Source of the DNA: Deltaproteobacteria bacterium
GTDB lineage: Bacteria; Myxococcota; Myxococcia; SLRQ01
Direction of reading: 5' to 3'
DNA length: 64,000 nucleotides
Assembly: GCA_029210625.1 (NCBI GenBank)
Contig: JARGFU010000009.1
Coordinates: 124,001-188,000 of the forward strand
Part shown: positions 5,941 through 63,995 of the stretch, piece by piece
How positions within the stretch are numbered: the first letter of the stretch is position 1
Layout: each line of letters begins with the position of its first letter
Translations under genes and position numbers: made by a program
Notes under the pieces: generated by a model
The model's database searches: none
What the model was told of the DNA's origin: nothing
Seen by the model: only the letters and a program-made list of their open reading frames with translations

Positions 5941-5943
5941 CGG

Positions 5944-7029: not shown

Positions 7030-7047
7030 GACGCGCTCCGTTGGGCT

Positions 7048-7839: not shown

Positions 7840-7862
7840 CCCCCCGGTCGAGCGGCCGCGTC

Positions 7863-7891
7863 TGGACCGTCGCCCGGGCGGCAGCTATCTT
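7863..7891 (+). promoter_or_regulatory. Candidate promoter of the acyl-CoA catabolism operon
   Basis: TGGACC (7863-7868), a 17-nt spacer, and TATCTT (7886-7891) form a sigma-70-like promoter. The predicted start at about 7898 gives a leader of about 40 nt before the ATG at 7937. The GntR palindrome would then lie at about -85 to -95. Confidence 0.45.
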
Positions 7892-7936
7892 GCCGCCTCC
7901 CCGCGGGAAACAAGCGGGCTCACCCCACGAGGCACC

Positions 7937-8725
<789 letters not shown>

Positions 8726-8740
8726 GGAGCGCGAGACACC

Positions 8741-10279: not shown

Positions 10280-10305
10280 TCCGACCCGCCGAAGGAGGCG
10301 ACGCC

Positions 10306-11448
10306 ATGAACTTCGAGCTCCCCGAGGACCTCCAGATTCTCCAGAACTCCATCCGCTCCTTCTGCGAGGAGAAGGTCGCCCCGAAGGCCCGCGCGTGGGA
10401 CCGGGACGAGACCTTCCCCCACGAGGTGGTCCGCGAGCTCGGCGAGCTCGGCGTGATGGGCGTGACCGTCGCCGAGGAGTACGGCGGCGCGGCGATGAAC
10501 TACCTGGCCATGTCGGTGGTCATCGAGGAGATCGCCCGCTTCGACGGCTCCCTCGCCCTCACCGTGGCCAGCCACAACGGGCTCTGCAGCAACCACATCA
10601 AGATGTTCGGCAACGACGCCCAGAAGGAGCGCTTCCTGCCGGGGCTGGCCGCCGGCAAGCTCCTGGGCGCCTGGGGGCTCTCCGAGGCCCACTCCGGCTC
10701 GGACGCCGCGGGCCTGAAGACCACCGCCGTGAAGAAGGGCGACACCTGGATCCTCAACGGCTCCAAGATGTGGATCACCCAGGGGACGGTGGGCGACGTC
10801 TACGTCATCCTGGCCAACACCAGCCCCGAGAAGAAGCAGAAGGGCATCACGGCCTTCATCCTGGAGAAGGACACCCCCGGCTTCAGCCGCAACGCCATCC
10901 ACGGGAAGCTGGGCATGCGCTCCTCCGACACCGCCGAGCTGGTGATGGAGGAGGTCGAGGTCTCCGACGAGATGCGGCTGGGCGAGATCGACCACGGCTT
11001 CATCGACACCCTGCAGATCCTCGACCGGGGCCGGATCACCATCGGCGCCCTGGCCACCGGCCTCGGCCGCGGGGCCGTCGAGGAGGCCAGCAAGTACGCC
11101 CTGGAGCGCGAGGCCTTCGGCGGCCCCATCGCCCAGTTCCAGGCCATCCAGTGGAAGATCGCCGACATGGCGACCGAGAACGACGCCGCCCGCCTCCTGG
11201 TGCGCCGCGCCGCCACCCTCCACGACGCCGGCAAGCCCTTCGGCATCGAGGCCTCGAAGGCCAAGCTCTTCGCCTCCGAGTCCGCGACCCGGGCCTGCTC
11301 CGAGGCCATCCAGATCCACGGCGGCTACGGCTACACCAACGAGTTCCCGGTCGAGCGCTACTGGCGCGACGCCAAGCTCTGCGAGATCGGCGAGGGCACC
11401 AGCGAGATCCAGCGAATGGTGATCTCCCGGGCCCTGCTGGCCGGCTAG
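10306..11448 (+). CDS. Acyl-CoA dehydrogenase
   Basis: This 380-residue protein is a standard FAD-dependent acyl-CoA dehydrogenase. It has the N-terminal helical domain (about 1-120), the central beta domain with G-L-S-E-x-x-x-G-S-D and M-W-I-T (near residues 125-160), and the C-terminal helical domain. Q-I-H-G-G-Y-G-Y and the E-I-G-E-G-T-S-E-I-Q-R segment near the C-terminus supply the FAD-binding and catalytic-base region. It introduces the alpha,beta double bond in acyl-CoA esters and passes electrons to ETF. A strong GAAGGAGG at 10291-10298 sets the ATG at 10306. Chain-length or branched-chain preference (isovaleryl-, butyryl-) cannot be read safely; its neighbours argue for branched-chain amino-acid or odd-chain catabolism. 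Confidence 0.92.
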   Translation: MNFELPEDLQILQNSIRSFCEEKVAPKARAWDRDETFPHEVVRELGELGVMGVTVAEEYGGAAMNYLAMSVVIEEIARFDGSLALTVASHNGLCSNHIKMFGNDAQKERFLPGLAAGKLLGAWGLSEAHSGSDAAGLKTTAVKKGDTWILNGSKMWITQGTVGDVYVILANTSPEKKQKGITAFILEKDTPGFSRNAIHGKLGMRSSDTAELVMEEVEVSDEMRLGEIDHGFIDTLQILDRGRITIGALATGLGRGAVEEASKYALEREAFGGPIAQFQAIQWKIADMATENDAARLLVRRAATLHDAGKPFGIEASKAKLFASESATRACSEAIQIHGGYGYTNEFPVERYWRDAKLCEIGEGTSEIQRMVISRALLAG

Positions 11449-14575: not shown

Positions 14576-15760
14576 ATGGCCAGAGATGTCGTCATCGTCG
14601 CCGCAAAGCGGACCGCCCTCGGTGCCTTCCAGGGCGCCCTCTCTTCCATCCCCGCCCCGAAGCTGGGCGCCGCCGTGATCAAGGCGGCCCTCGAGCAGGC
14701 CAAGGTCGACCCCGCCGACGTGGGCGAGGTCTACATGGGCCAGGTGCTCCAGGCCGGCGTCGGCCAGGCCCCGGCCCGGCAGGCCGCCCTCGGCGCGGGC
14801 ATCGACAAGCACACCCCCTGCACCACGGTGAACAAGGTCTGCGGCTCGGGCCTCAAGACCGTGATCCTCGCGGCTCAGGCCATCGCGCTCGGCGAGGTCG
14901 AGGTGGCCGTGGCCGGCGGCATGGAGAACATGTCCGACGTGCCCTACGCCCTGCCCAAGGCCCGGACCGGCTACCGGATGGGCAACGGCGAGGTGCGCGA
15001 CCTGATGGTCAGCGACGGCCTCTGGGATCCCTACAACGACTTCCACATGGGCATGGCCGCCGAGCTCTGCGCCCGGGAGAAGGACATCGGCCGCGAGGCC
15101 CAGGACGCCTACGCCGTCGAGTCCACGAAGCGCTCGATCGCGGCGATGGAGGCCGGGGTCTTCAAGGACGAGATCGTCCCCATCGAGATCCCCCAGCGCA
15201 AGGGCGACCCCATCGTGGTCGACACCGACGAGGGCCCGAAGAACGCCAAGCCCGACAAGATCGGCTCGCTGCGCCCGGCCTTCCAGAAGGACGGGACGGT
15301 GACCGCCGGCAACGCCTCGTCGATCAACGACGGCGCCTCCGCCCTGGTGCTGATGAGCGCCGAGGAGGCGAAGAAGCGCGGCCTCGAGCCCCTCGCCACC
15401 ATCCGGGGCTGGGGTGGGGCGGCCCGGGAGCCCGAGTGGTTCACCATGGCGCCCTCCGACGCGATCCGCGCGGCCCTGAAGAAGAGTGGCCACACCACCG
15501 ACCAGATCGACCTCTGGGAGATCAACGAGGCCTTCGCGGTGGTGGCCGAGGCCAACAACCGCGAGCTCGGCCTCGACCCGGCCAAGGTGAACGTCCGCGG
15601 CGGCGCGGTCTGCCTGGGCCACCCCATCGGCGCCTCCGGCGCCCGCATCCTCACGACCCTGCTCTACACGATGCGGGACGAGGGCAAGAAGCTGGGCTGC
15701 GCGAGCCTCTGCATCGGCGGCGGTGAGGGCATCGCCCTGGTGGTGGAGCGCGCCGGGTAG
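14576..15760 (+). CDS. Acetyl-CoA acetyltransferase (thiolase)
   Basis: The 394-residue protein has all thiolase catalytic motifs: nucleophile Cys89 in V-N-K-V-C-G-S-G, N-E-A-F-A-V-V, His349 in C-L-G-H-P-I-G-A-S-G-A-R, and Cys379 in C-I-G-G-G-E-G. Length and motif spacing fit biosynthetic/degradative acetyl-CoA C-acetyltransferases, which interconvert two acetyl-CoA and acetoacetyl-CoA; a 3-ketoacyl-CoA thiolase role is also possible. AAAAGGAG about 8 nt upstream fixes the ATG. In the leucine/ketone-body context here it would process acetoacetyl-CoA. Confidence 0.92.
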   Translation: MARDVVIVAAKRTALGAFQGALSSIPAPKLGAAVIKAALEQAKVDPADVGEVYMGQVLQAGVGQAPARQAALGAGIDKHTPCTTVNKVCGSGLKTVILAAQAIALGEVEVAVAGGMENMSDVPYALPKARTGYRMGNGEVRDLMVSDGLWDPYNDFHMGMAAELCAREKDIGREAQDAYAVESTKRSIAAMEAGVFKDEIVPIEIPQRKGDPIVVDTDEGPKNAKPDKIGSLRPAFQKDGTVTAGNASSINDGASALVLMSAEEAKKRGLEPLATIRGWGGAAREPEWFTMAPSDAIRAALKKSGHTTDQIDLWEINEAFAVVAEANNRELGLDPAKVNVRGGAVCLGHPIGASGARILTTLLYTMRDEGKKLGCASLCIGGGEGIALVVERAG

Positions 15761-16305
15761 TGGTCTGGGGGGTGGTCCTCCTCCAGGCGACGGCCTCGCT
15801 CACCCTCCTCGGGCCCTCGGCGGCCCGGGGCGGGGTGGAGGGCGCCGCGCGCGCGCAGCCGGCGCAGGTCCTCGCCTACCGGGCGCCGGCCTCGCTGCTG
15901 GTCTCCCCCCTGCGCGCCCCCCGGGGCGTCGCGCCGGAGGGCCTCGACCTCTCCGGCGGGGGCGCCGGGCTGATCGATCCGGGCCGCAGCAGCGGGGTGG
16001 ACTCCGGCGTCGCCTGCGTCGTCGGGGCGCTGGTGCCGGGGCTGGGGCACGCCATCCTCGGGCAGTACCTTCCGCGGGGGCTGGCCTTCACCTCGGCCTT
16101 CACCGCGATGGTCATCGGGGCCGTCGCGGCGATGCAGCACGCCAACAGCAGCCCCGCCCTGCGGGGGCAGCTGCTCTTCGCCGGCCTGGTGCTCCTCCTG
16201 GCCGCCGACGTGGTCTACCTCTGGTCGGTGATCGACGCCCTGATGATCTCCTCCCGGCCCAGCCCCGATCGGCAGGGCCCCGGACACCTCCTGGGACGTG
16301 ATTGA
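15760..16305 (+). CDS. Hypothetical membrane protein
   Basis: This 181-residue frame starts at a GTG overlapping the thiolase TAG by one base (TAGTG), which suggests coupling. The N-terminus has a hydrophobic signal-like stretch. Two or three transmembrane helices follow in the second half (V-A-C-V-V-G-A-L-V-P-G-L-G-H, then F-T-S-A-F-T-A-M-V-I-G-A-V, then L-L-F-A-G-L-V-L-L-L-A-A-D-V-V-Y-L). The P-G-L-G-H-x-x-x-G-Q-Y pattern is reminiscent of TM2/DUF5683-type small membrane proteins with a 'PGxGQ' turn. The function is unknown. Confidence 0.65.
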   Translation: MVWGVVLLQATASLTLLGPSAARGGVEGAARAQPAQVLAYRAPASLLVSPLRAPRGVAPEGLDLSGGGAGLIDPGRSSGVDSGVACVVGALVPGLGHAILGQYLPRGLAFTSAFTAMVIGAVAAMQHANSSPALRGQLLFAGLVLLLAADVVYLWSVIDALMISSRPSPDRQGPGHLLGRD

Positions 16306-16330
16306 CGGCCCGCAGGGGGGCGAGTAGGAA
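16302..16330 (+). promoter_or_regulatory. Candidate promoter upstream of PilZ gene
   Basis: TTGACG (16302-16307), 17 nt, TAGGAA (16325-16330). The -35 is good and the -10 weak. It ends 9 nt before the ATG at 16340, so a very short leader is implied; GAGGA just before the ATG could alternatively act as a Shine-Dalgarno. Confidence 0.35.
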
Positions 16331-16339
16331 CGAGGACGG

Positions 16340-16834
16340 ATGGCAACCAAGAAGCGCAGGAAGAAGAGCAAGAAGAGCGAGGCCGCGGCACCCCCGGAGG
16401 CCGCGCGGGACGCCCTCGAGGCCCTCCTGGACGAGGTGGCCATCGGCGGGCTCGGGCCCGTCGCTCCCCGGCCCCCAGACGAGCCCCTGGCGGTCCTCGA
16501 CACCGTCGAGGTCAGCCGGGCCGAGCGCGTCCCCTTCGAGGGCTACGTGCGGGTCGAGGCCGGGGACCGGGTGGTCCGCGCCCTCGGGCACGACCTCTCC
16601 GAGACCGGGATCTTCCTCGCCGCCATGGGTAGCCCCATCGCCGGGCAGGGTGAGGAGCTGAACCTCGAGATCCCCCTCCCGGACGGCGAGGAGCCGATCT
16701 GGATGACGGGGAGGGTGGTGCGCTGCGAGGAGCGGCAGGGCTTCTTCGCCGTCGCGGTCTCCTTCGGCCATCTCATCTCCGCCGATCGCACCCGCCTGAA
16801 GGCCTACGTCTCCGACCGCGCCCGCCTGCTCTAG
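16340..16834 (+). CDS. PilZ domain protein with Lys-rich N-terminus (degenerate first motif)
   Basis: The protein is 164 residues. The first 15 are strongly basic (K-K-R-R-K-K-S-K-K-S), followed by an acidic/proline linker and a PilZ-type beta-barrel from about residue 60. The D-x-S-x-x-G motif is intact (D-L-S-E-T-G-I-F-L), but the upstream arginine motif reads R-A-E-R instead of R-x-x-x-R. High-affinity c-di-GMP binding is therefore uncertain. PilZ proteins convert c-di-GMP levels into protein-protein regulation. The gene sits just before a second PilZ gene, as a tandem pair. Confidence 0.8.
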   Translation: MATKKRRKKSKKSEAAAPPEAARDALEALLDEVAIGGLGPVAPRPPDEPLAVLDTVEVSRAERVPFEGYVRVEAGDRVVRALGHDLSETGIFLAAMGSPIAGQGEELNLEIPLPDGEEPIWMTGRVVRCEERQGFFAVAVSFGHLISADRTRLKAYVSDRARLL

Positions 16835-51047: not shown

Positions 51048-53000
51048 TCAGGGCAACTCCGGGGCAGATTCCCCCAGTTTCGGGCGCCGGGCGGCGGCCG
51101 CGAGGCGCTCGACCAGGGCCTCTCGGGCGAGGAAGCCCTCGTCCGCCCCACCCCGCAGGCGCAAGCTGGCCCCGCCCTCCTCGACCTCCTTGTCGCCCAG
51201 GACCAGCACCGCCGGCACCTTCTGGAGCGAGAAGCGCCGGATCTTGGCGTTCATCTTGTCGGAGGCCTCATCGACCTTCACCCGGATCCCGGCGGCCTTC
51301 AGGTCGGCGGCCAGGGCCAGGGCGGCCTCGAGGTGGCGGTCGGCGATGGTGACGATCCCGACCTGCACCGGAGAGAGCCAGAAGGGGAAGGCCCCGGCGT
51401 GGTGCTCGGTGAGCACGCCCACGAAGCGCTCGATGGAGCCCAGCAGGGCCCGGTGGATGACGTAGGGGCGGTGCGCGGCGTTGTCGCTCCCCACAAACTC
51501 CAGGTCGAAGCGCTCGGGGAGGTTGAAGTCGAACTGCACCGTCGAGCACTGCCAGGTCCGCCCGATGGCATCCTTGAGCTTCAGATCGATCTTCGGGCCG
51601 TAGAAGGCGCCGCCGCCCTCGTCGATCTTGTAGTCGAGCCCCGCCGCGGTGGCGGCCTTCTCCAGGGCCTTCGTGGCCCGGTCCCATTCCTCGGGCTCAC
51701 CGACGGCCTTCTCGGGCATGGTCGAGACGTAGGCCTCGAACTCGCTGAAGCCGAAGGTGCGCAGGATCTGGAGGCAGAAGTTCACCACGTCGACGACCTG
51801 CTCCTCGAGGTTCTCGGGGGCCACGAAGAGGTGGGCGTCGTCCTGGGTGAAGCCGCGGACCCGCATCAGGCCGTGGAGGGTGCCGCTGCGCTCGTAGCGG
51901 TAGACCGTCCCGAGCTCGGCGAACTTCAGGGGGAGCTCGCGGTAGCTGCGGTGCCCGTGCTTGTAGATCATCATGTGGAAGGGGCAGTTCATCGGCTTCG
52001 CGTAGAAGCTCTGCCCTTCCAGCTCCATCTCCGGGTACATCCCCTCCTTGTAGAAGTCGAGGTGACCGCTGGTCTCCCAGAGGGTCGCCCGGCCGACGTG
52101 GGGGGAGTAGACGAGGTCGTAACCGGCCGCGAGGTGCTCGTCCCGCCAGAGATCCTCGATCTGCTTGCGGATCAGGGCGCCGTTCGGATGCCAGAGGATG
52201 AGGCCGCCGCCGACCTTCTCGTCCACCGAGAAGAGGTCGAGCTCCTTGCCCAGCTTGCGGTGGTCGCGCTTCTTCGCCTCCTCGAGGCGCTCGAGGTGGG
52301 CCTTGAGCTCCTTCTTGTCGGTGAAGGCGGTGCCGTAGATCCGCTGGAGCTGCTCGTTGCCCTCCTGGCCGCCCTGGTAGGCGCCGGCCACCGAGAGCAC
52401 CTTGAAGGCCTTGATCTTGCCGGTGTCGGAGAGGTGCGGGCCCCGGCACATGTCCTCGAACTCGCCGTGCTTGTAGAAGGAGATCTCGGCGTCCTCGGGG
52501 AGGCGCTCGATGATCGCGGCCTTGTAGCGCTGGCCCGTCTCCTCGACCCACTTCAGGGCCTCCTCGCGGCCGCAAGAGCGCTTCACGAAGGGCGCGCCCT
52601 CCTTGAGGAGCTTCTTGCACTCCTCCTCGATCCTCTCGAGGTCCTCGGGGGTGAAGGGATCCACGCCGCCGATGTCGTAGAAGAAGCCCATCTCGGTGGC
52701 CGGGCCGTCGTCGAAGACCGCGCCGGGGAAGAGGCGCTGCACCGCCGAGGCGAGGATGTGGGCCGCCGAGTGGCGCAGCCGCATCAGGCCCTCCTCGTCC
52801 CGGGAGGTGAAGATCTTCAGGGCGCTGTCCTTCTCGATGGGCGCGCCGAGGTCGACCTCGACCCCGTCCAGGGAAGCGCCGAGCGCCGCGCGCAGGAGAC
52901 CCTCGCCGATCTGCTCCCGGATAAACTCGGACACCGGGGTGCCGGCGGCGACCTGCTTCTGGCTGCCGTCTGGGAGGGAGACCTTCACTTCGCTGCTCAT
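51048..53000 (-). CDS. thrS: Threonyl-tRNA synthetase
   Basis: The 650-residue protein has an N-terminal TGS domain (V-S-L-P-D-G-S), an editing domain with R-H-S-A-A-H-I-L-A-S-A-V, and the class II catalytic core (M-N-C-P-F-H-M-M-I-Y-K with the zinc-ligand Cys; R-Y-E-R-S-G-T-L-H-G-L-M-R-V-R-G-F; H-R-A-L-L-G-S-I-E-R-F). The C-terminal anticodon-binding domain follows. AAAGGAACGAAGCG precedes the ATG. No T-box or thr-operator-like leader is recognisable in the 86 bp upstream; instead the tRNA-Val gene and its hairpin lie there. Confidence 0.97.
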   Translation of the reverse strand: MSSEVKVSLPDGSQKQVAAGTPVSEFIREQIGEGLLRAALGASLDGVEVDLGAPIEKDSALKIFTSRDEEGLMRLRHSAAHILASAVQRLFPGAVFDDGPATEMGFFYDIGGVDPFTPEDLERIEEECKKLLKEGAPFVKRSCGREEALKWVEETGQRYKAAIIERLPEDAEISFYKHGEFEDMCRGPHLSDTGKIKAFKVLSVAGAYQGGQEGNEQLQRIYGTAFTDKKELKAHLERLEEAKKRDHRKLGKELDLFSVDEKVGGGLILWHPNGALIRKQIEDLWRDEHLAAGYDLVYSPHVGRATLWETSGHLDFYKEGMYPEMELEGQSFYAKPMNCPFHMMIYKHGHRSYRELPLKFAELGTVYRYERSGTLHGLMRVRGFTQDDAHLFVAPENLEEQVVDVVNFCLQILRTFGFSEFEAYVSTMPEKAVGEPEEWDRATKALEKAATAAGLDYKIDEGGGAFYGPKIDLKLKDAIGRTWQCSTVQFDFNLPERFDLEFVGSDNAAHRPYVIHRALLGSIERFVGVLTEHHAGAFPFWLSPVQVGIVTIADRHLEAALALAADLKAAGIRVKVDEASDKMNAKIRRFSLQKVPAVLVLGDKEVEEGGASLRLRGGADEGFLAREALVERLAAAARRPKLGESAPELP

Positions 53001-53208: not shown

Positions 53209-54183
53209 TCAACGAGGCTTTCGATCTCCGAGGGTCGTTTCCAGGAGCTCCAGCGCCCGCCGCGCCTCCTTGCGACGAGCCCCCGAGAGCCAGAGCGTGA
53301 GGCGGAGCCCATCGGGTTGCCGCTTCAGGCCCCGGAGGGTCGCGGCCTGCAGCCCGGACCCGAGCAGCAGGTCCACGTAGGCGCGCTCCTGCGGCCAGAG
53401 GGCCACGGGGCGGCCCCCCGCCTCCCGGAGGTCGAGGAGCACTCCGAGGGGATCGATGGCCGGCAGGCGCGCGGGCGCAGCACCTCGCTCGCCGATCCAG
53501 AGCGCGGCGCCCGCCTCGCCTCGGGCCACGAGGAGCGCCAACGCCTCGGGCGAGAGGCCCTCCGGCGCCTGCTGGACCAGGAGCTGATCCCGGGGGCGCG
53601 ACCCCCAGCCGCGCAGCCGCTCCGGGCTCGTGGCCCCCCGGAGCCAGACCCGCACCCGGGTCGGCGGCAGCCGCCCCAGCCCCACGCGGGCCGCCTCGTC
53701 CTCCCCGGGATCCACTCCCAGGGTGATCCCTCGCAGGCCCCGCAACCCCTCCAGCTGCTTCACGTGCACGGGCAAGAGCGGCATCTCCAGCCAGAGGTGG
53801 ACGGCGGGGTGCGCGCGGAGCCGGTTCAGCAGCGCCGGCCGGATCATGTTTCCGCGCGGCAGGTGCAGCGCGAGCACCACGCCCGGGATCGCCGCGGCCT
53901 GCTTCCAGGTGGCCGAGGGATCGTCCTCTCCGAGGACCACCATCCGGGGGATCGGGCCGAGGTCGAGCTCCAGGGCCTCGATGGCCTCCCGCTCCGGCTC
54001 GGGCCGGGGCGGCGGCGGCCGGGGCACCTCGGGCAGGCGCCCTCCCCGCTCGACCTCCAGGGGCAGCCCCCGCCGGGGCGGCTCCTTCGCCTCCCGCGCC
54101 TCGTCCTCCCCGGCCCACCCGGCGGCGGGCGCGGTGAGGAGCAGCGCGCAGCCGATGCTAGCGATGCAGCTCTTCGACCTCAC
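53209..54183 (-). CDS. Unrecognised exported protein
   Basis: The 324-residue protein has a signal peptide (S-I-G-C-A-L-L-L-T-A-P-A-A-G-W-A-G) and a Pro/Arg/Glu-rich stretch (about 25-70). Its body suggests a TIM-barrel- or leucine-repeat-like domain (V-V-L-A-L-H-L-P-R-G-N-M-I-R-P-A-L-L, L-R-G-I-T-L-G-V-D-P-G-E-D-E). I know no family for it. Its GTG start overlaps the metallophosphoesterase stop by 26 bp, so translation of the two is coupled. No Shine-Dalgarno is obvious. Confidence 0.65.
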   Translation of the reverse strand: MRSKSCIASIGCALLLTAPAAGWAGEDEAREAKEPPRRGLPLEVERGGRLPEVPRPPPPRPEPEREAIEALELDLGPIPRMVVLGEDDPSATWKQAAAIPGVVLALHLPRGNMIRPALLNRLRAHPAVHLWLEMPLLPVHVKQLEGLRGLRGITLGVDPGEDEAARVGLGRLPPTRVRVWLRGATSPERLRGWGSRPRDQLLVQQAPEGLSPEALALLVARGEAGAALWIGERGAAPARLPAIDPLGVLLDLREAGGRPVALWPQERAYVDLLLGSGLQAATLRGLKRQPDGLRLTLWLSGARRKEARRALELLETTLGDRKPR

Positions 54184-55234
54184 GGTGGTAGCCCTTCCAC
54201 TCCCGCAGGTGCGGATCCCAGCGCTCGTGGCGCTCGCTCCACTCCAGCAGGGCGTAGGTCAGCTTCACCTGCCGCCCCAGGTGCTCGATCTCGAGGCTGG
54301 TGACGTGGTTCCAGGTGCCGGTGTTCAGGTAGGTGCGCCCCCCGGGGTACTCCCGGAAGAGGGCGTGGTGGGTGTGGCCGAAGACCACGATCTCGCACTG
54401 CTGCGCCTCGAGGAGCTGCGCCGCCTCCCGCTCCAGGCTGGGCGAGGCGCTGTAGCGCAGGATCTTCCCGGCCAGCTCGAGGAAGCGGAAGCGCCGGTGG
54501 GCCTTGGGCGTGAAGATCGAGTGCAGGAGGAAGGCGAAGGAGCGCCGGACCAGCCGCAGCAGCCAGCGGGTGTCGTTCCAGACGGCCCAGCGCAGGAAGC
54601 GCCGGAAGGGGGTCACCTTGTCGATGTAGGGGCGCTGGGCCTTCTCCACGGCCATCACGTGGATCAGGTAGTGCGCGCCCCAGGGCAGGTTCACGACCGG
54701 CTCGGGGAGCCCACGGGTGAGGAAGAGGCGGCTGGCGTCGAAGTCGTTGAGGACGTCCCAGCGGTGGCCGTGCTCGATGTGGACCGCGTCGAAGCGCAGG
54801 TGGTCGAGGTGGAAGCTCACCCGCTCCCCCAGCCGCTCGCGCAGCAGCGCCTGCACCGAGTCGAAGAGGAGGCCCGGATCGTGGTTGCCCATCACGAAGG
54901 CGATGGAGCGGCGCGGCACGCTGGCGAAGCGCTCGAGGGCGTCGAAGAGCTTGCGGTGGCCGTCCAGCACCCGCCGCAGCAGCTCCCGGCAGACCTCCTC
55001 GGTGAAGAGGTCCTCCTGGCGGGCCACCTCGTTGAGCTGCAGCAGGTTGAAGAAGTCGCCGTTGATCACCAGCTCCACCTCGGCGTCGTGGAACTCGCCG
55101 GTGCGGTGGAACTCGAGGAACTCGACGAACTTCTCGTCGAAGAAGAAGTCCTCGAGGTAGTTGCGGGTGCCGTCGGCCCGGTAGCGGCCCGTGCCGAGGT
55201 GGAAGTCCGAGACGACGAGCTTGACCTTGCGCAC
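54158..55234 (-). CDS. Calcineurin-like metallophosphoesterase
   Basis: The 358-residue protein has all five phosphoesterase motifs of the dimetal site: S-D-F-H-L-G (D-x-H), N-G-D-F-F, G-N-H-D-P, a lone His in E-H-G-H, and G-H-T-H-H. The opening resembles UDP-2,3-diacylglucosamine hydrolase (LpxH) relatives, but it is longer and has inserted helices (about 200-260), so I do not assign lipid A synthesis. It lies 7 bp downstream of the AI-2E transporter gene and overlaps the next gene by 26 bp. Confidence 0.88.
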   Translation of the reverse strand: MRKVKLVVSDFHLGTGRYRADGTRNYLEDFFFDEKFVEFLEFHRTGEFHDAEVELVINGDFFNLLQLNEVARQEDLFTEEVCRELLRRVLDGHRKLFDALERFASVPRRSIAFVMGNHDPGLLFDSVQALLRERLGERVSFHLDHLRFDAVHIEHGHRWDVLNDFDASRLFLTRGLPEPVVNLPWGAHYLIHVMAVEKAQRPYIDKVTPFRRFLRWAVWNDTRWLLRLVRRSFAFLLHSIFTPKAHRRFRFLELAGKILRYSASPSLEREAAQLLEAQQCEIVVFGHTHHALFREYPGGRTYLNTGTWNHVTSLEIEHLGRQVKLTYALLEWSERHERWDPHLREWKGYHREVEELHR

Positions 55235-55241
55235 GGGGCCC

Positions 55242-56480
55242 TCAGGCCTCGCGGTAGAACTCGGACTCCCGGTAGAAGTCGAGCACCACCTTCAGGAGGA
55301 TCTTGAGGATCGCGGCCAGGGGCACCGCCACCAGGACGCCGAAGAAGCCGAAGAGCTCCCCGAAGACCAGCACCGCCACGATGATCACGAAGGGCGAGAG
55401 GCCCACCGAGTCGCCTACGATCTTAGGCGTGATCACCCAGCCCTCGAGGAACTGCACCACCCCGAAGACGGCGTAGACCGCCAGGAAGGGGCCCCAGCCG
55501 TGCCAGTCGAGGATGGCCAGCGAGGTGGCGAGGATCAACCCGACGGCGGTCCCCAGGTAGGGGACGATGTTCCCCAGGCCGGCCGAGATCCCCACCAGGG
55601 TGGCCAGCGGCAGCCCCACCGCCCAGAAGCCGACGGTGTAGAGCAGGGCCAGGATCGAGGAGACCGTGAGCTGGCCCCGGACGAAGGCGCTCATCGCCCC
55701 GTCGATGTCCCGGAAGCGGGCCGAGACCGGCTCGCGGTAGGCGGCCGGGAGCAGCTCGCGGATCCGGGCCACGATGAGGTCGAAGTCCCGCAGCAGGTAG
55801 AAGGCGAAGACCGGGATCATGAGCAGCCCGGCCAGGGAGGCCAGCAGGCTGACCGTGCCCCCGAAGAGCCCCTGGAGGACGCGCCCGACCGGCGCCGCCA
55901 GGCCCTTGAGCTCGGTGGACTGGAGCTGCCCCACCGTGTTGGTCACCAGCTCCCGCAGGCTGGCGGGCAGCTCGAGGCCGAGCTGCTCCTGCAGGTAGGG
56001 ATCGGCCCGGGTCAAGAGCAGGCTCACCTTCCCCGGCACCTGGCCGAACTCGGCGACCACCTGGGGGATGATGAGCAGGGTCAGGAGGGCCAGGACCGTC
56101 AGGAAGGAGGCCAGGAGGATCACGATGGCCGAGGTGCGGGGCACCTTGCGTGCCTCGAAGCGGTCCACGACCGGATCCAGGAGGTAGGCGATGATGAACG
56201 CCACCAGCAGGGGCACCGCCACCGAGCGCACCAGGGAGGCGAGGTAGACCAGCGCGGCCAGCGCCGCCAGGACCCCGAGCCCCCAGAGCATCCTCCGCTT
56301 CAGCCCCAGGAAGACCGCCGGATCCTCCCGCGGCCCTTCGACCCCAGCATCCGCCTCAGCCTCAGCATCCGCCTCGGCGTCCGCCGCCTGCCCCTCCGCG
56401 CCCGGAGCCTCCTCGGCCTTCACCTCGACCGGGGCTTCCTCGGCCTTCACCTCGGCCCTGCGAACCTTCTTCTTCGTCAC
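55242..56480 (-). CDS. AI-2E family transporter (PerM-like)
   Basis: This 412-residue protein begins with about 60 residues of Ala/Glu repeats (E-A-P-V-E-V-K-A-E-E-A-P) in the cytoplasm, followed by seven or eight transmembrane helices. The signature P-Y-L-G-T-A-V-G-L-I-L-A and F-L-E-G-W-V-I-T-P-K-I-V-G-D-S-V-G-L lies near the C-terminus. The family includes TqsA (autoinducer-2 export) and sodium-proton antiporters, so the substrate is open. The acidic-repeat N-terminus is unusual for the family. The metallophosphoesterase gene follows 7 bp downstream. Confidence 0.9.
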   Translation of the reverse strand: MTKKKVRRAEVKAEEAPVEVKAEEAPGAEGQAADAEADAEAEADAGVEGPREDPAVFLGLKRRMLWGLGVLAALAALVYLASLVRSVAVPLLVAFIIAYLLDPVVDRFEARKVPRTSAIVILLASFLTVLALLTLLIIPQVVAEFGQVPGKVSLLLTRADPYLQEQLGLELPASLRELVTNTVGQLQSTELKGLAAPVGRVLQGLFGGTVSLLASLAGLLMIPVFAFYLLRDFDLIVARIRELLPAAYREPVSARFRDIDGAMSAFVRGQLTVSSILALLYTVGFWAVGLPLATLVGISAGLGNIVPYLGTAVGLILATSLAILDWHGWGPFLAVYAVFGVVQFLEGWVITPKIVGDSVGLSPFVIIVAVLVFGELFGFFGVLVAVPLAAILKILLKVVLDFYRESEFYREA

Positions 56481-56539: not shown

Positions 56540-57322
56540 CTACTCGCCAGCCAGCGCCGCGTCGCGCTTCTGGTTCCAGGCGACCCACGCGGCCTCGGCG
56601 GACTTCGCCTCGTCGGCCGCGGCGAACTCCTCGGGCTCGGCGGGCAGGCCGTTGGCGCCGATCTTGATGGACATCATCTCGCCCACCAGCTTCTCCCACT
56701 GGTCCTTCGAGACCTGCTGGGGACCGGCGACCTCCTGCCGCTTCTCGCCCGTCTCGTGGGTCTGGTACATCGGCCGCATGCCGGCGACGGCCACCGCGCC
56801 GTTGTAGACCCGCACGAGGGTCGACTTGTCCTTGTTGGCGTTGACCCGGAAGGTCGTGCCCCGGACGCCGGCCACGGCGTTGTCGGTGGTGATCTCGTAC
56901 TTGCTGTCCGCCCCGAAGGCCTTGGTCACCTTGGTCCAGGCCTTGCCGAGGGAGAGCCCCACCGAGACCTTGCGGCCGCCGTCGATGAAGGCGGCCTCCT
57001 TGATGGTCGCCTCGCTCTTGGGGCCGAGGCGCACCATCGAGCCGTCGCCCAGCTTGATCTCGAGCTTGGAGTTCCCGATGGTCTTCACCTTGTCGCCGGC
57101 GAAGACCGACTCGCCCTTCTTGAGGGCCTTCTTCTGGTCCTTGCCGAAGTAGCGGAAGGCGCGGCCCTCCCGGAAGGTGACCTCACCCGCGGCCTCGACC
57201 GCCGGAGCCGCCGCCGGCTCGTCGGCCGCGAAGGCCGAGGTGATGCTCACCGAGGCCAGAGTGGCGAGAGAGATCGCACCCACGAGGAGCGCGATATGGC
57301 GGCTGTCGATTCGAGCCTTCAT
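56540..57322 (-). CDS. FecR-domain exported protein
   Basis: The 260-residue protein has a signal peptide (L-A-T-L-A-S-V-S-I-T-S-A-F-A). A FecR-like domain (about 45-190) has the characteristic G-D-K-V-K-T-I-G-N-S-K-L-E-I-K-L-G-D-G-S, L-G-P-K-S-E-A-T-I and A-V-A-G-V-R-G-T-T-F-R-V motifs, followed by a helical Glu/Ala tail. It lacks a transmembrane anti-sigma anchor and no sigma factor is near, so it is more likely a periplasmic or surface binding domain than a regulator. It overlaps the PEGA gene by 4 bp. Confidence 0.88.
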   Translation of the reverse strand: MKARIDSRHIALLVGAISLATLASVSITSAFAADEPAAAPAVEAAGEVTFREGRAFRYFGKDQKKALKKGESVFAGDKVKTIGNSKLEIKLGDGSMVRLGPKSEATIKEAAFIDGGRKVSVGLSLGKAWTKVTKAFGADSKYEITTDNAVAGVRGTTFRVNANKDKSTLVRVYNGAVAVAGMRPMYQTHETGEKRQEVAGPQQVSKDQWEKLVGEMMSIKIGANGLPAEPEEFAAADEAKSAEAAWVAWNQKRDAALAGE

Positions 57323-57762
57323 GGGGCTGTCTCCTTGTCCTTTTCGTCCGATCCCTCGGGCATCGCCGGAAGACGCCGGAGCTTCACGGGAATGGTTTCG
57401 GTCACGTCGGCAGCGACGTGCACCTCCGCGCGGTAGGTCTCGTAACCGGTCAGGCGAACCTCGATGCGATGGGTCCCGGGATCGAGCTCGAGGTAGGCGG
57501 GCGCGATGAAGTCCGAGCCCAGGCCCTGGGTCACCCCGTCCAGCTCGATCTCCGCCTCGGTGGGCTGCACCGCCAGGCGGATCCTGCCCCGGCCCGGGGC
57601 CGGCATCTCGATGGGGAGGGCCGCCGGGGCGGCCTCCCCGGAGGTGACGGGGAGCGGGGTCGCCGGGGGGTCAGCCGAGGCGGGGCTCTGCGCTCCCGCA
57701 CATCCGCCCAGGCCCCCGAGGAGGCCGAGGCCGCCCAGGAGCAGGATTGGCAATCGGCTCAC
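57319..57762 (-). CDS. PEGA-domain lipoprotein
   Basis: The 147-residue protein has a lipobox (L-G-G-L-G-G-C) and a disordered Ala/Pro spacer. A PEGA domain follows with V-Q-P-T-E-A-E-I-E-L-D-G-V...L-E-L-D-P-G-T-H-R-I-E-V-R-L-T-G-Y-E-T-Y. The start appears to be a GTG after GAGGG. PEGA domains are surface or periplasmic beta-sandwiches, often in envelope complexes. It is 16 bp downstream of the FlgT-N-like gene and coupled to the FecR gene. Confidence 0.85.
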   Translation of the reverse strand: MSRLPILLLGGLGLLGGLGGCAGAQSPASADPPATPLPVTSGEAAPAALPIEMPAPGRGRIRLAVQPTEAEIELDGVTQGLGSDFIAPAYLELDPGTHRIEVRLTGYETYRAEVHVAADVTETIPVKLRRLPAMPEGSDEKDKETAP

Positions 57763-57778
57763 CCCTCGACTCCCTCGA

Positions 57779-59098
57779 CTACTTCTCCAGCTTCAAGGTC
57801 AGCGCGCCGGGCTTCACGCCCATCACGGCGACCGAGAAGGGCCCCAGCTTCTTGGCGGAGAGCTCAGCAGCGATGTCCTCGGCGCTGGCCGTGGTCTGCA
57901 CCTCGAGCTTGGCCTTTCCATCGGCGAACTCGCGCTGCTGCACCGAGCTGATGCCGGTGATCCCGTCCTGCAGCAGACCCTTGAACTTCATCAGGTCGCC
58001 GTAGGAGGACACGCCGCTCACGTCGAGCTTCACCCAGGAGCCGCTCTCCTGGTTCTGCCAGGTGTCGGCCAGGCCCTGCTTGATCTTCACCGAGAGCGAG
58101 CGGGCGAGGCTCTGGAAGCTCCAGTTGCCGGCCAGGTCGGGGGAGACCGCGGTGCCGTTGCCGTCGCCGGAGGCCGTGGTGAGCACGGCGCCGGTGCGGA
58201 TGTCGATCAGGCGGACCGAGCCGGAGGCGTGGGAGGCGACCAGCGAGTCCGAGTTCCACATCTGCTTGAGGTTGTTCTTGGGCACCATCGCCGTGGCCGT
58301 GCCGTAGACGATGATCTCGGCGTCGGTCAGGCCGCCGATCTTGGCCAGCACGTCGTCGGAGACCTTCTCGCCCTTGAGCCCCGCGACCAGCGGGTGGGAG
58401 GCGAGGGAGGTGTAGTCGAAGAAGCGGAACTGGAGGTTGGCCGGCAGGGGCTCCCAGCACTCCTTGCGCTTGGTGGCCTTGGGCGAGCCGCACTCCTCGT
58501 CGCCCTTGCGGGTCTTCACGGTCTTGCCCTCACCCACGTAGGTCTTGTTGAGGTAGTCCATGAGGGCGTTCTCGAAGACCTGCGGCCTCGGACCGGCGGC
58601 GCCACCCTCGGCGTTCCACCAGTAGCTCGGCTTCGGCGAGTCGGCGTTCTGCTCGGCGACCATCAGGAGCACGCGCGGGTAGCGCTGCTTCTGGATGAGG
58701 AGGCCGATGCGATCGAGGCGATCGCGCAGCTTGCCCTTGGACACGGTGACCTTCAGGGTCACCTTGCAGCTCGCCGCATCGCAGGAGGGCGCACCGACCG
58801 GCTCCCAGCCGCTCACGTAGCCACCGCTCTGGGCGCTGACCTCGTCGCGGACCGCGATCCAGTCCTTGCTCTCGGAGATGCCCGTGACGAAGGTGCCGGC
58901 CACCCTCTCCACCGCGTCCCGGAGGGCGTACTGCTTCGCCTTCTGCTTGGCGGCCTCCACGTTGCCCGCCACGATGGCGGCCTCACCGGTGCTCTCCACC
59001 GTCTGCTCCGCGGCCTTCTCGGCGAAGGCCGGAACCGAGAACATCGTGGTGACTGCAAGCGCCACCACCGTCCAGACCTGCTTTTCGAGGCTTCTCAT
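57779..59098 (-). CDS. FlgT N-terminal-domain-like exported protein
   Basis: The 439-residue protein has a signal peptide (V-V-A-L-A-V-T-T-M-F-S-V-P-A-F-A). Residues 35-135 show the pattern G-x-A-x-I-x-x-x-x-x-x-A-K-x-x-A-L-R-D-A-V-E-R-V-A-G-T-F-V seen in FlgT-N and LPP20 domains. Next is P-R-V-L-L-M-V-A-E-Q-N and a CsgG/FlgT-middle-like region (D-A-E-I-I-V-Y-G-T-A-T-A, V-R-L-I-D-I-R-T-G-A-V-L). The C-terminus repeats a similar short beta-alpha unit. In Vibrio FlgT forms the flagellar H ring; here no flagellar gene is visible. Strong AAAGGAG Shine-Dalgarno. It follows the LPP20-like gene by 28 bp. Confidence 0.7.
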   Translation of the reverse strand: MRSLEKQVWTVVALAVTTMFSVPAFAEKAAEQTVESTGEAAIVAGNVEAAKQKAKQYALRDAVERVAGTFVTGISESKDWIAVRDEVSAQSGGYVSGWEPVGAPSCDAASCKVTLKVTVSKGKLRDRLDRIGLLIQKQRYPRVLLMVAEQNADSPKPSYWWNAEGGAAGPRPQVFENALMDYLNKTYVGEGKTVKTRKGDEECGSPKATKRKECWEPLPANLQFRFFDYTSLASHPLVAGLKGEKVSDDVLAKIGGLTDAEIIVYGTATAMVPKNNLKQMWNSDSLVASHASGSVRLIDIRTGAVLTTASGDGNGTAVSPDLAGNWSFQSLARSLSVKIKQGLADTWQNQESGSWVKLDVSGVSSYGDLMKFKGLLQDGITGISSVQQREFADGKAKLEVQTTASAEDIAAELSAKKLGPFSVAVMGVKPGALTLKLEK

Positions 59099-59126
59099 CC
59101 TCTTTGCTCCTTTTTCTTGGCGCTCA

Positions 59127-59906
59127 TCAGTCAGTAACGATCATGACGCGCCCCTCCGAGAGGAAGGGCTCGCTCTTGGCGGCTCCGCGGACCTTGCCGG
59201 CCACGTCCATGGCCAGCACGACGTCGCTGCCCTTCGCCTCGGTGGCCTTCACCACCAGCGGCGAGCAGCCGACGCGGGCGTTCGACTTCGCCTCGTCCAC
59301 GGACTTCGCGTAGGCCGCGACGCCACGGTCGGCGGCCGCGCCGGGCTCCAGCAGCGCGGAGGCGGCGACCTCCTTGCCGGAGGCATCCAGGACCCGCGGC
59401 GCCAGCGCCGGCACGACGCCGGTACCCTTGGCGTCCACCACCAGGCCGGTGGTCCCGCCCGCGCAGGCGCCCTTCGGGGTGGCGCTCGCCGGGATCACGG
59501 CAGAGGCCAGCTCGCCGTCGAGCTTCATCTCCACGTCCACCTCCACGCCGCCGTCCGAGAAGTAGCGCGTCGCGGTGACCTCGAAGTTGCGCAGCACGCC
59601 CTGGACCTTGGCCTTCACCGAGGAGTTCGACTCGATGATCCCACCGACGCTCTCACCGCCGGTGACCTCGACCCCCTCGAGGGTCTCGAGGATGTTCCGC
59701 ATGGCATCCAGCTTGGCGGCCTTCTCGGCCCCCAGGCGGGCGACCGTGATGTTGGCCGCCTTGAGGTTGGGAGCCCCCTTACCGGTAGCCTTGACCACCC
59801 GGTTGCTCCAGTCGACTTGACCCTTCTCCGCTACCGCCGAGCTCGACAGGCCAACCCCCAGGGTAAGACTCATCAAAGCGACGACGACCCGCCCTCGCAT
59901 CATCAT
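59127..59906 (-). CDS. LPP20-like exported protein (FlgP-type)
   Basis: The 259-residue protein has a signal peptide (V-A-L-M-S-L-T-L-G-V-G-L-S-S-S-A-V-A) without a lipobox Cys. It then has an LPP20-like unit: V-K-A-T-G-K-G-A-P, A-N-I-T-V-A-R-L-G-A-E-K-A-A-K-L-D-A-M-R-N-I-L-E-T, V-E-V-T-G-G-E-S, and V-E-V-D-V-E-M-K-L-D-G-E-L. This is the fold of Vibrio FlgP and of Helicobacter LPP20. A second half contains another beta-rich unit with two cysteines. Strong AAAGGAG (59913-59919) sets the ATG at 59906. It is first in a four-gene operon. Confidence 0.75.
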   Translation of the reverse strand: MMMRGRVVVALMSLTLGVGLSSSAVAEKGQVDWSNRVVKATGKGAPNLKAANITVARLGAEKAAKLDAMRNILETLEGVEVTGGESVGGIIESNSSVKAKVQGVLRNFEVTATRYFSDGGVEVDVEMKLDGELASAVIPASATPKGACAGGTTGLVVDAKGTGVVPALAPRVLDASGKEVAASALLEPGAAADRGVAAYAKSVDEAKSNARVGCSPLVVKATEAKGSDVVLAMDVAGKVRGAAKSEPFLSEGRVMIVTD

Positions 59907-60772: not shown

Positions 60773-61960
60773 TCAGGGACACCCGTTCACGGGCCCGGCG
60801 GCGGCGAAGCGCTCGCCGAGGATCCGGCAGACCCGGGCCTGGAAGGGGGCGCCCTCGCCGGCGCTGGCGGCCGCGAGGACGGCGAGGAAGTCGGGCACGG
60901 TGAAGGTGCCCACCCTCTGGATGGCCCATTCGAGCGCGGCGGGCAGCGCCGCCAGCGCGGCGAGGACCCAGCGGTCGGCGACGCCCGGGTCCTCGCTCTC
61001 GGCGCGGATGCGCCAGAGGGCGCTGGCGAGGACCGCCCCCAGGAGGTAGGGGTCGAAGCCCGTGAGGTTCTGCTCCGCGTCCGCCATGGCCTGGGTGTAG
61101 AGGCGGGCCACCGAGACGTCCCGCCGGTCGCTCTCCGAGGGGAGCGTCAGGGCGATGAAGTCGGGATCCCCCGTGACCCAGGCCCCGAAGTAGTCGGCCA
61201 GCCCCTCGTTGAAGCCCGCCAGCCGGGCCTGCGCCGGCCCGTCGAGGGAGAGGGTCCGCCAGGAGAGGGGCTCGAAGTCGTCCACCAGGCAGGACCAGAT
61301 GCCGTGGCTGTACTCGTGGGCGATGATCCCCTGGTTCATGGCCATCGCGAGGGTCGGGAACGCGTCGTGGGGGAGGAAGAAGATCGAGCCCATCAGGGGC
61401 ATGAAGAAGGCGTTGTCGTGCTGCTTGCCCCCCACCCCGCCCGCGCGCTCGATGAAGGTGAGGTCGTAGTAGGTGGGCAGCCGGGCCAGGCAGGCGGGCG
61501 GCAGGCCGGCGCCCACCGCCGCGCGTCGGGCGCGGGCCACGTGGGCGTAGGCGGTGGCCATCCCGAGGGAGTGGTAGTCCTCGGCCAGCCAGACCGTCTG
61601 CGCGCCCCCCGCGCTCTCCAGGGTGCCGGGGCTGAACATCGCCCGGGGAGGCCGGCCCCTCCGGCGGACCATCGCCTCCTTCACGTCGTCCAGGGTGAGG
61701 AGCTCGCCGGCCTCGATGCCTCGGGCGATCTCGTCGTGATCGAGGACCAGCTTCGCTCCGGCCAGCACCTCCACGCCGGGGCCGCGGAGGTGAGCCAGGG
61801 ACTCGATCTCCGGCAGCTCGGTCGGGACGATGGCGTAGGTCCCCGGCGTCTCACCGGGGCCGAGCACCCCCACCGTCACCGGACCCGAGACGTCGGGCCC
61901 GCACCCCGCCGCGAGGAGCAGCAGGATCGTCGGTAGGCAGCGCGGCGGACGAGAGGCCAT
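60773..61960 (-). CDS. Gluzincin-type zinc metallopeptidase lipoprotein
   Basis: From the ATG at 61960 this is a 395-residue lipoprotein (I-L-L-L-L-A-A-G-C). It has an H-E-Y-S-H-G zinc site (H-E-x-x-H) and, about 40 residues on, N-E-G-L-A-D-Y-F-G, whose Glu fits the third zinc ligand of thermolysin-like gluzincins. The region before has repeated Y-D-L-T-F-I-E and G-S-I-F-F-L-P-H. It is probably an active surface or periplasmic protease; no propeptide domain is obvious. Residues upstream of 61960 belong to an open frame crossing the PilZ gene and were excluded. Confidence 0.85.
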   Translation of the reverse strand: MASRPPRCLPTILLLLAAGCGPDVSGPVTVGVLGPGETPGTYAIVPTELPEIESLAHLRGPGVEVLAGAKLVLDHDEIARGIEAGELLTLDDVKEAMVRRRGRPPRAMFSPGTLESAGGAQTVWLAEDYHSLGMATAYAHVARARRAAVGAGLPPACLARLPTYYDLTFIERAGGVGGKQHDNAFFMPLMGSIFFLPHDAFPTLAMAMNQGIIAHEYSHGIWSCLVDDFEPLSWRTLSLDGPAQARLAGFNEGLADYFGAWVTGDPDFIALTLPSESDRRDVSVARLYTQAMADAEQNLTGFDPYLLGAVLASALWRIRAESEDPGVADRWVLAALAALPAALEWAIQRVGTFTVPDFLAVLAAASAGEGAPFQARVCRILGERFAAAGPVNGCP

Positions 61961-61983
61961 CCGCCGCAGTCTACCCTCGCCGG

Positions 61984-62361
61984 CTAGTTCGCGCGCGGGA
62001 GGCTCCGCCGTCGGCGGCGGCGGCGGGCCACGTAGGCCGCGATCAGGGTGCGGTAGCGCTCGGGCATGGCGGTGAAGCGGATGCCGGAGCCTTCCCGGCC
62101 GTCCTCCCCCACCTCTCGCACGATCTCGCCGCTGGCCCAGATGACCTCGCGGCTGCCGGGCAGCGCGAACTCGAGGTGCACCTCCTTGCCCTCGAGCGCC
62201 GGCTCGATGAGGCTGCGCAGGTAGATGCCTCCGATGGAGATGTTCCGGGTCCGGCACATGAAGGGCTCGTCACCGACGATCTTGTTCAGGAAGATGTCGA
62301 GCGGTGCCCGCTGCTGCCGTCGCGTCCGCTCCTCGCTCCAGGTCTTCTCGGCTGCAATCAC
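61984..62361 (-). CDS. PilZ domain protein with intact c-di-GMP motif
   Basis: The 125-residue protein starts at the GTG at 62361 after a strong AAGGAGGA. The PilZ domain contains R-R-Q-Q-R (R-x-x-x-R) and N-I-S-I-G-G (N-x-S-x-x-G), then G-E-I-V-R-E-V and G-S-G-I-R-F. It ends with a basic R-R-R-R-R-R-S tail. It lies 23 bp upstream of the peptidase gene on the same strand. An earlier in-frame start at 62553 would overlap the divergent REC gene and is unlikely. Confidence 0.88.
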   Translation of the reverse strand: MIAAEKTWSEERTRRQQRAPLDIFLNKIVGDEPFMCRTRNISIGGIYLRSLIEPALEGKEVHLEFALPGSREVIWASGEIVREVGEDGREGSGIRFTAMPERYRTLIAAYVARRRRRRRSLPRAN

Positions 62362-62449
62362 GGTGGCTCCTCCTTCGAGTGGGCCTTTTCGGGGGGTGGT
62401 GGGACTCGGGTCTCCCTCGGTCTCCCCGGAGAGGCGTTGTCCTACCTCC

Positions 62450-62477
62450 AACCTACCGACCCCCCGGCGGCCGTCAA
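62450..62477 (-). promoter_or_regulatory. Candidate promoter of the PilZ gene
   Basis: Minus strand: TTGACG (62472-62477) directly after a run of eight T, 16 nt, TAGGTT (62450-62455). The T-run may act as an UP element. The leader would be about 85 nt and contains GTGGGCCTTTT at 62379-62389, whose complement occurs at 62480-62490. Confidence 0.4.
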
Positions 62478-62543
62478 AAAAAAGGCCCACCGCGGATCGA
62501 AGCAGTTCGGTGGGGCTGGCAAGTGCCCGGAAATCGCGGTTGA

Positions 62544-63995
62544 ATGGCCGCAATGGCCGCGCGGATCCTCGTCGTGGACGACCACATCGAGCTCGCCACG
62601 CTCCTGGGCACAGCGCTCGAGGGACGGGGGCACGTGATCGAGCTGGCCCACAGCGGAGAGGAGGCCCTCCAGGCCGTCCGCGTGCAGCGGCCCGACGCCG
62701 CGGTCGTCGACCTGCTCCTGCCGGACATGCTGGGCACCGACGTGATCGACGCCCTGGTGGCCTCCGAGCCGCCGATCCCCGTCATCGCGATCTCGGGCGT
62801 CTTCCGGGGACCCTCCGGCAGCCACGCCGCGGTCGAGGAGCACGGGGCGCACCTCTTCCTCGAGAAGCCCTTCAGCACCAAGGCCCTCCTGGACGGGATC
62901 GCGGACCTGGTCGGCGCGACCGCCGAGGTGCCGGTGGAGATCGCCGAGGAGGACGCGGCCGAGGAGGCGCTGATCGAGCTGGAGCTCTCCGAGGCCATCG
63001 AGATCGACGAGGAGGAGCTGCAGCCGACCAACCCGCCCTCCCCTCCGGTGGCCTACGAGGCGCCCCTGACCTACGAGGCGCCGCTCCCCGAGCCCGGTCC
63101 GGCGCCCGAGCGCCGCAGCGCGGGGAAGCTGGCCCGGATGGGCTTCGTCGAGGATCTGGCGGGCGAGGCCGACCCCGGCCCCGCGCCGGATCGTTCGGCG
63201 AGGGCGCGGCTCCCCCGCCCCCCCCCGGAGCCGGCCACTCCGACCCGGCCCGCGGCGCGCTCCGGCGACCTCGCCCTCACCCGGGTCCCCCGCCTCATCG
63301 CCGCGCAGACCCTCGCCCGCACGACCGGCAGCCTGGTCCTGCGGCGCGGCAAGGCCACGAAGGCCATCTACTTCCAGAACGGTGAGCCGGTCTACGCGGC
63401 CTCCAACCTCGCCCGGGACCGCCTGCTCTCCTTCGCCGTGCGGCGCGGCAAGCTCGCCCGGGAGGACGCCGAGGCGGCCATGGAGATCGCCCGGGAGACC
63501 CAGAAGAAGACCGGCCAGATCCTCCTGGAGATGGACGTCCTCGATCGGGACGAGCTCACCGCGCTGGTGAAGGACCAGCTCCGGAGCCTCCTCTGGAGCA
63601 CCTTCGACTGGCGGGAGGGCAGCTACCAGCAGCGCCCCGAGAAGGGCACCCGCTCGAACGTCGGCATGGGTCTGCCCCTCGGGAGGCTCGTCCTCCAGGG
63701 CATCGCCGAGACCCTCTCCCTCGAGGCCCTCCAGGACTGGCTCCCCGAGACCACCGTGCTGGGCCCGGGCACCGCCCCGACCGTCCCCCTCGAGGAGCTC
63801 GACCTCGACTCCGGCACCGCCCACCTCCTGGTGGCCGCCGATGGCACCAAGACCGTGCGCGACCTGCTGGCCCTCGCCGCTCCGCTGCCCGAGCGCGAGG
63901 TCCTCGCCTTCCTCGCCGGCCTCGAGGCGCTGGGCATCCTCGTGACCCGCGATCAGATGCTCACGAGCCTCTCGCGGGTCGGCTTCCTGATCTGA
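62544..63995 (+). CDS. Response regulator with DUF4388 (PATAN-like) domain
   Basis: The 483-residue protein has a complete receiver domain: Asp pair in V-V-D-D-H, phosphoacceptor Asp56 in V-V-D-L-L-L-P-D, Ser in A-I-S-G and Lys in F-L-E-K-P-F. An acidic then Pro-rich linker (about 130-230) leads to a DUF4388-type domain (G-S-L-V-L-R-R-G-K-A-T-K-A-I-Y-F-Q-N-G-E-P-V-Y-A-A-S) and a helical C-terminus. This architecture is common in myxobacterial signalling and gliding-related proteins. The ATG at 62544 or 62553 is possible; neither has a Shine-Dalgarno. No output DNA-binding domain is present. Confidence 0.88.
   Translation: MAAMAARILVVDDHIELATLLGTALEGRGHVIELAHSGEEALQAVRVQRPDAAVVDLLLPDMLGTDVIDALVASEPPIPVIAISGVFRGPSGSHAAVEEHGAHLFLEKPFSTKALLDGIADLVGATAEVPVEIAEEDAAEEALIELELSEAIEIDEEELQPTNPPSPPVAYEAPLTYEAPLPEPGPAPERRSAGKLARMGFVEDLAGEADPGPAPDRSARARLPRPPPEPATPTRPAARSGDLALTRVPRLIAAQTLARTTGSLVLRRGKATKAIYFQNGEPVYAASNLARDRLLSFAVRRGKLAREDAEAAMEIARETQKKTGQILLEMDVLDRDELTALVKDQLRSLLWSTFDWREGSYQQRPEKGTRSNVGMGLPLGRLVLQGIAETLSLEALQDWLPETTVLGPGTAPTVPLEELDLDSGTAHLLVAADGTKTVRDLLALAAPLPEREVLAFLAGLEALGILVTRDQMLTSLSRVGFLI

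Follow-up and report, generated by a model that had tools for sequence, protein, structure and literature searches.

A conserved non-flagellar operon of Myxococcota encoding relatives of the flagellar H-ring and basal-disk proteins

FlgP and FlgT have so far been treated as accessory parts of the flagellum. In Vibrio they belong, together with FlgO, to the H-ring (LPHT ring, 8z5n; FlgT, 3w1e), and in Campylobacter FlgP, a motor-scaffold lipoprotein, belongs to the basal disk (9hmf). A beta-hairpin has been linked with ring formation in FlgP-type proteins (PMC12222027). Here we describe four adjacent genes, P1 to P4, in a 64,000-nucleotide stretch of DNA (the window; contig JARGFU010000009.1 of GCA_029210625.1, positions 124,001 to 188,000) from a Deltaproteobacteria bacterium of the phylum Myxococcota. 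They encode an LPP20/FlgP-type protein, a FlgT-like protein, a PEGA-domain lipoprotein and a FecR-domain protein. The original prediction, made from the letters alone, had proposed that they could form an envelope-spanning ring or secretion collar reused in a non-flagellated organism. Our analysis identifies the operon as conserved, non-flagellar and related to the H-ring/basal-disk protein set; the open literature searched does not describe it.

All four genes lie on the minus strand, from 59906 to 56540, with gaps of exactly 28 bp between P1 and P2 and 16 bp between P2 and P3, and with a 4-bp overlap of P3 and P4. A good Shine-Dalgarno sequence precedes each open reading frame (ORF; GGAAAGGAG, AAGGAG, GAGGGAG and AAGGAG), confirming the predicted arrangement of four packed, exported ORFs. 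P1 (59127..59906) comprises an LPP20/SHS2-type domain (~30-137) and a second domain (~150-259) like D2 of Treponema Tp0624, while P2 (57779..59098) comprises a FlgT_N domain (~30-125), a middle domain of CsgG/PelC/LpoB-like type (~140-350) and a C-terminal domain (352-438). The signal peptides of P1, P2 and P4 were judged by eye to be type I-like. P3 (57319..57762) contains a PEGA domain (PF08308, 36.2 bits; cut-off 20.8) and the lipobox LGGC, and a lipobox was present in 41 of 49 P3 relatives. The FecR domain of P4 (56540..57322) was identified at 65.6 bits (PF04773; cut-off 24), and an alignment of its relatives revealed a conserved C-terminal motif of the type W-x-x-W-N-x-x-R-D.

The placement of the first two proteins in the LPP20 and FlgT-N families was borne out by profile searches. 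P1 of the window scored 18.5 bits against Pfam LPP20, under the curated cut-off of 25.9; among 30 of its relatives 12 gave an LPP20 match, and one (locus L088) reached 34.4 bits, above that cut-off. A profile built from these 30 relatives matched solved FlgP structures with E-values of 6.9e-9 (8z5n) and 1.3e-7 to 3.3e-7, Campylobacter FlgP with 1.4e-13, and the first two domains of Tp0624 (5jir) with 1.6e-13. The AlphaFold2 model of P1 (predicted local distance difference test score, pLDDT, 89) gave Tp0624 as its best Foldseek match (E 3.2e-12; query template-modelling score, TMq, 0.73), followed by weak matches to FlgP (E 0.035) and Helicobacter Lpp20 (E 0.11). By both profile and fold, P1 corresponds to the D1+D2 unit of Tp0624, with both domains together; it stops after D2, and no OmpA Pfam match to the C-terminal OmpA-like domain of Tp0624 was found in it. 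The P1 profile places D1 of Tp0624, published without an LPP20 assignment, in the LPP20/FlgP superfamily. No lipobox was detected in P1, and a lipobox-like motif was seen in only 2 of 41 relatives.

P2 of the window scored 25.0 bits against Pfam FlgT_N, under the curated cut-off of 28.8. All 34 of its relatives matched FlgT_N, the best with 6e-14, so the assignment holds at the level of the family. The profile of these relatives matched solved FlgT with 2.4e-5 to 1.9e-4, and FlgP and FlgO were matched as well; similarity to CsgG was distant (profile E 0.09-0.36; P2 of the window in Pfam 12.6 bits, under the cut-off of 20.8). The AlphaFold2 model (pLDDT 84) had FlgT 3w1e as its best full-length fold match in Foldseek (E 6.5e-9 across 458 columns) and also matched the LPHT-ring chain 8z5n_0 (1.3e-8). 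P2 shares the three-domain N-M-C architecture of FlgT, with a different orientation of the domains relative to 3w1e, and its middle domain matches the folds of CsgG, PelC, LpoB and GNA1162. The model contains a beta-hairpin (strands 70-78 and 81-90) between a helix (47-67) and a strand (94-100), which makes ring formation by P2 plausible as far as the model goes.

The window had been noted to lack flagellar genes. This holds, and on searching the host genome (98% complete) flagellin and FlgI were found to be absent from it. It does have one type III secretion system (T3SS) export gate of non-flagellar type (FHIPEP, FlhB, FliR, FliP and FliN families), which resembles the Myxococcales non-flagellar gate described earlier (PMC3459982). 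At locus L071 (G000:C27, ~4364-10420), whose genome has neither flagellin nor FlgI, GGDEF proteins lie near the gate genes FHIPEP/FlhB/FliR/FliP/FliN.

We then scored P1 and FlgI in 195 Myxococcota genomes. P1 was present in 146 and FlgI in 49, with both in 37, P1 alone in 109, FlgI alone in 12 and neither in 37, so that the two are independent of each other (odds ratio 1.05, p=1). None of the flagellated genomes checked had an LPP20 or FlgT_N match close to FlgI, and some of them (for example G031 and G032) had no P1, LPP20 or FlgT_N match whatever. Given the independent distribution of P1 and FlgI, the lack of LPP20 and FlgT_N matches beside FlgI in the genomes checked and the absence of these families from G031 and G032, the four-gene set does not belong to the flagellum in Myxococcota. 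A normal flagellum using P1 and P2 as its FlgP and FlgT is thus excluded, by the absence of flagellin and FlgI as well as by the phylum survey.

The neighbourhood survey showed that the cassette recurs in conserved order across the phylum, in nearly all the Myxococcota families read. The downstream DNA was long enough for a count in 52 named loci: FlgT was present in 46, FecR in 47, PEGA in 40 and all four genes in 34. Recurrence of the order across the phylum is far beyond chance. Two culturable strains that have the whole operon are Pyxidicoccus fallax DSM 14698 (L095) and Hyalangium versicolor (L114). One Myxococcota family (L052, L059, L147 and L151) encodes, behind a single signal peptide, an in-frame fusion of the P1 LPP20 domain with a whole FlgT-like protein. 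Of the 146 P1-positive genomes, 87 have P2 together with P4, 54 have neither and five are discordant; these sets were curated by hand from listings, and by coordinates most of the five discordant genomes are at contig ends. All 20 P2-negative genomes that were fetched keep P1 and PEGA without FlgT and FecR. As the kept and lost genes alternate, each such loss needs two deletions. Locus L128, in which FlgT is lost and FecR retained, is a possible intermediate. On a tree of the AI-2E permease both traits, P2 and P4, change six times. Taken with the contrasts on this tree, the fusion, the joint presence and absence and the retention of P1 with PEGA link P1 with P2, and P2 with P4, and leave P1 and P3 as a separable pair. 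That the proteins act together, as first proposed, is supported by the conserved order, the natural LPP20-FlgT fusion and the co-loss of FlgT and FecR.

Larger forms of the operon were also observed. The Desulfobacterota-type order (L088, L090, L107, L108, L113, L117 and L119, with the Pfam identities verified for L108 and L119) reads LPP20, a lipoprotein with tetratricopeptide repeats (TPR), FlgT-like, a GNA1162-like lipoprotein, a CsgG-type lipoprotein, PEGA and FecR. The CsgG protein of L108 has a FlgT_C domain above the Pfam cut-off, and at L119, from a Desulfobacterales metagenome-assembled genome, a second FlgT_N protein is encoded downstream of FecR (15489-16616, +). A Myxococcota locus (L048/L140) has two CsgG-family lipoproteins between the FlgT-like and PEGA genes (L048:4104-6007, -). 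In its gene content the operon of the window resembles a trimmed form of the larger operon.

We interpret the four proteins as a non-flagellar, periplasmic, outer-membrane-associated complex built from parts of the H-ring/basal-disk type, with a probability of about one half. Computation gives the homologies and the signals for export, and shows that the operon is conserved and independent of flagella, that LPP20 and FlgT occur fused, that FlgT and FecR are lost together and that LPP20 and PEGA are kept together; from these results we infer ring formation, stoichiometry, the membrane location of P1, P2 and P4, function, and cargo or load. The PEGA lipoprotein P3 would be the outer-membrane anchor of the assembly, and P1, the LPP20-domain protein, would bind P3 and stack on the SHS2-type N-terminal domain of P2. 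P2 may oligomerise through its beta-hairpin and its CsgG/PelC-like middle domain, giving a ring or collar beneath the outer membrane, with P4 as the partner required by P2 and perhaps as a link to peptidoglycan or a passenger. In Myxococcaceae without P2 and P4, the P1-P3 pair would retain a simpler envelope role.

Several observations weigh against this interpretation. Solved FlgP proteins are deposited as lipoproteins, which P1 is not, and the model of P1 has helices (87-93 and 95-105) at the position of the ring-forming hairpin of FlgP. Tp0624, the nearest solved relative of P1, is a monomer in solution (PMC5104382). The whole-length TM score between P2 and FlgT is low (0.25-0.31), with the domain orientation differing, and the pLDDT of the P2 hairpin is ~66-83. 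FlgT and FecR are dispensable in 54 genomes, and although all four of the supported independent contrasts on the tree are concordant, they are too few for significance (p=0.125). The P1 segment at the hairpin position is of equal length to that of FlgP and aligns with it ungapped, so its modelled helix could represent a monomer state; the Tp0624 crystal domain has short helices at this place too, and the hydrophobic moments of the region did not discriminate. Of the predicted envelope-spanning ring, the domains and the non-flagellar setting stand and the joint action is supported; the ring itself is favoured by the hairpin in the P2 model and disfavoured by its absence from the P1 model and by the monomeric Tp0624. 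"Reused" is not borne out, since it presupposes that flagella came first and the data give no direction of recruitment.

It would be possible, if rather doubtful, to read the operon as an envelope maintenance module that forms no ring, in which small soluble or lipoprotein complexes regulate peptidoglycan synthesis or outer-membrane integrity in the manner of LpoB-type activators or Tp0624. The P2 middle domain matches the LpoB, GNA1162 and PelC folds, Tp0624 is monomeric with a proposed envelope-stabilising role (PMC5104382), the P1-PEGA pair persists alone, and the neighbours include housekeeping genes (pgsA, thrS); but rings are formed by PelC and CsgG, to which this middle domain is related, the P2 hairpin is of the kind tied to ring formation (PMC12222027), and FlgT remains the best full-length fold match of P2. 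The CsgG protein with FlgT_C and the GNA1162-like lipoprotein of the Desulfobacterota-type operon, as well as the two CsgG proteins of L048/L140, would fit an outer-membrane export pore, the operon then deriving from a secretion channel of CsgG type that has a FlgT-like collar and exports polysaccharide or protein. This appears improbable, as most Myxococcota operons have no CsgG gene, no conserved gene for a secreted substrate was found, and P2 resembles CsgG only distantly. For the operon of the window, which has no CsgG gene, a curli/CsgG pore was rejected.

An outer ring for the secretin-less type III export gate of Myxococcales would be a quite improbable role. The host has such a gate, the Myxococcales non-flagellar T3SS branched off before secretin recruitment (PMC3459982), and P1 and FHIPEP co-occur above chance (odds ratio 3.1, p=0.007, without tree correction). 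Against it stand 18 P1-positive genomes without FHIPEP, several of them 95-100% complete, and 34 P1-less genomes that retain FHIPEP, and the genes are not linked. Least credible of all is a remnant or trans-acting flagellar FlgP/FlgT pair, which family membership at the superfamily level might suggest: for the host genome it is refuted by the missing flagellin and FlgI, P1 is distributed independently of FlgI, and in flagellated relatives the P1 and P2 types lie outside the flagellar clusters, G031 and G032 being flagellated with none of these families.

Downstream of P4 on the same strand lie genes for an AI-2E family permease (55242..56480; PF01594, 193 bits), a calcineurin-like metallophosphoesterase (54158..55234), which is a syntenic neighbour, and thrS, identified by sequence (51048..53000), which marks a conserved downstream position. 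Of 50 named loci, 25 have the permease and 25 have thrS downstream, the common order being AI-2E permease or pgsA followed by thrS-infC; relatives often have the permease directly after the four genes. The permease is probably an operon neighbour and not a member of the complex. Upstream, on the minus strand, is a PilZ-domain gene (61984..62553; PF07238, 55.9 bits) with an uncertain start codon. In 25 of 50 named loci a PilZ gene is found upstream of P1 at a distance of less than 3 kb, in some directly before it, which suggests possible control of the operon by cyclic di-GMP. The ORF at 60773-62257 (-) encodes a putative lipoprotein zinc metallopeptidase with an HEYSH motif, a lipobox-like AAGC and no Pfam match, its true start probably being well within the ORF. 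Divergent from the operon, 62544-63995 (+) encodes a fusion of a response regulator receiver with DUF4388; several relatives also have members of this family encoded close to the operon.

More tentatively, the operon may belong to an ancient ring machine of the outer membrane that is not flagellar (LPP20, FlgT-like, PEGA and FecR proteins, with CsgG, GNA1162 and TPR lipoproteins in Desulfobacterota) and has a common ancestor with the flagellar H-ring and basal disk. If so, a stand-alone envelope complex, which gliding, predatory and non-motile bacteria still retain, was either the source of the flagellar rings in Vibrio and Campylobacter or derived from them. As a phylum-wide operon of FlgP/FlgT homologues evolves independently of flagella, it is misleading to annotate a Myxococcota protein as "flagellar assembly protein T". 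The operon offers a non-flagellar system, testable in culturable myxobacteria, for the roles of the LPP20 and FlgT domains and the origin of the H-ring.

A search of the open literature, in which subscription journals are mostly missing, gave nothing on this operon in Myxococcus; MXAN_2063 is a FecR lipoprotein with other neighbours. Regulation of the FecI-FecR kind was rejected, the genes around P4 being PEGA, AI-2E permease and phosphoesterase with no adjacent extracytoplasmic function (ECF) sigma factor. In Leptospira, LipL46 resembles the P2 N-domain (2.7e-8), and LipL45/Qlp42 and Lsa33 resemble P4 (1e-19), all far under curated cut-offs; by locus number their genes are far apart (LIC11885, LIC11643 and LIC11834; PMC5553009). 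With the CsgG/GNA1162/LpoB/PelC lipoprotein superfamily the operon shares the fold of the P2 middle domain, and Desulfobacterota-type operons contain true CsgG and GNA1162 genes, but P2 is not a lipoprotein and has no clear CsgG match. The D1+D2 unit of Treponema Tp0624 equals P1, which differs in lacking the OmpA-like D3 and in its operon context. The LPP20/SHS2 domain of Campylobacter FlgP aligns with P1 nearly ungapped across the core, the ring-forming hairpin segment being modelled as helices in P1. With the Vibrio H-ring the operon shares an LPP20 domain of FlgP type in P1 and a full-length FlgT match in P2; it differs in the absence of a flagellum and, in the operon of the window, of a separate FlgO gene, in its PEGA and FecR partners, and in a P1 that, compared with FlgP, has an additional domain and no lipobox.

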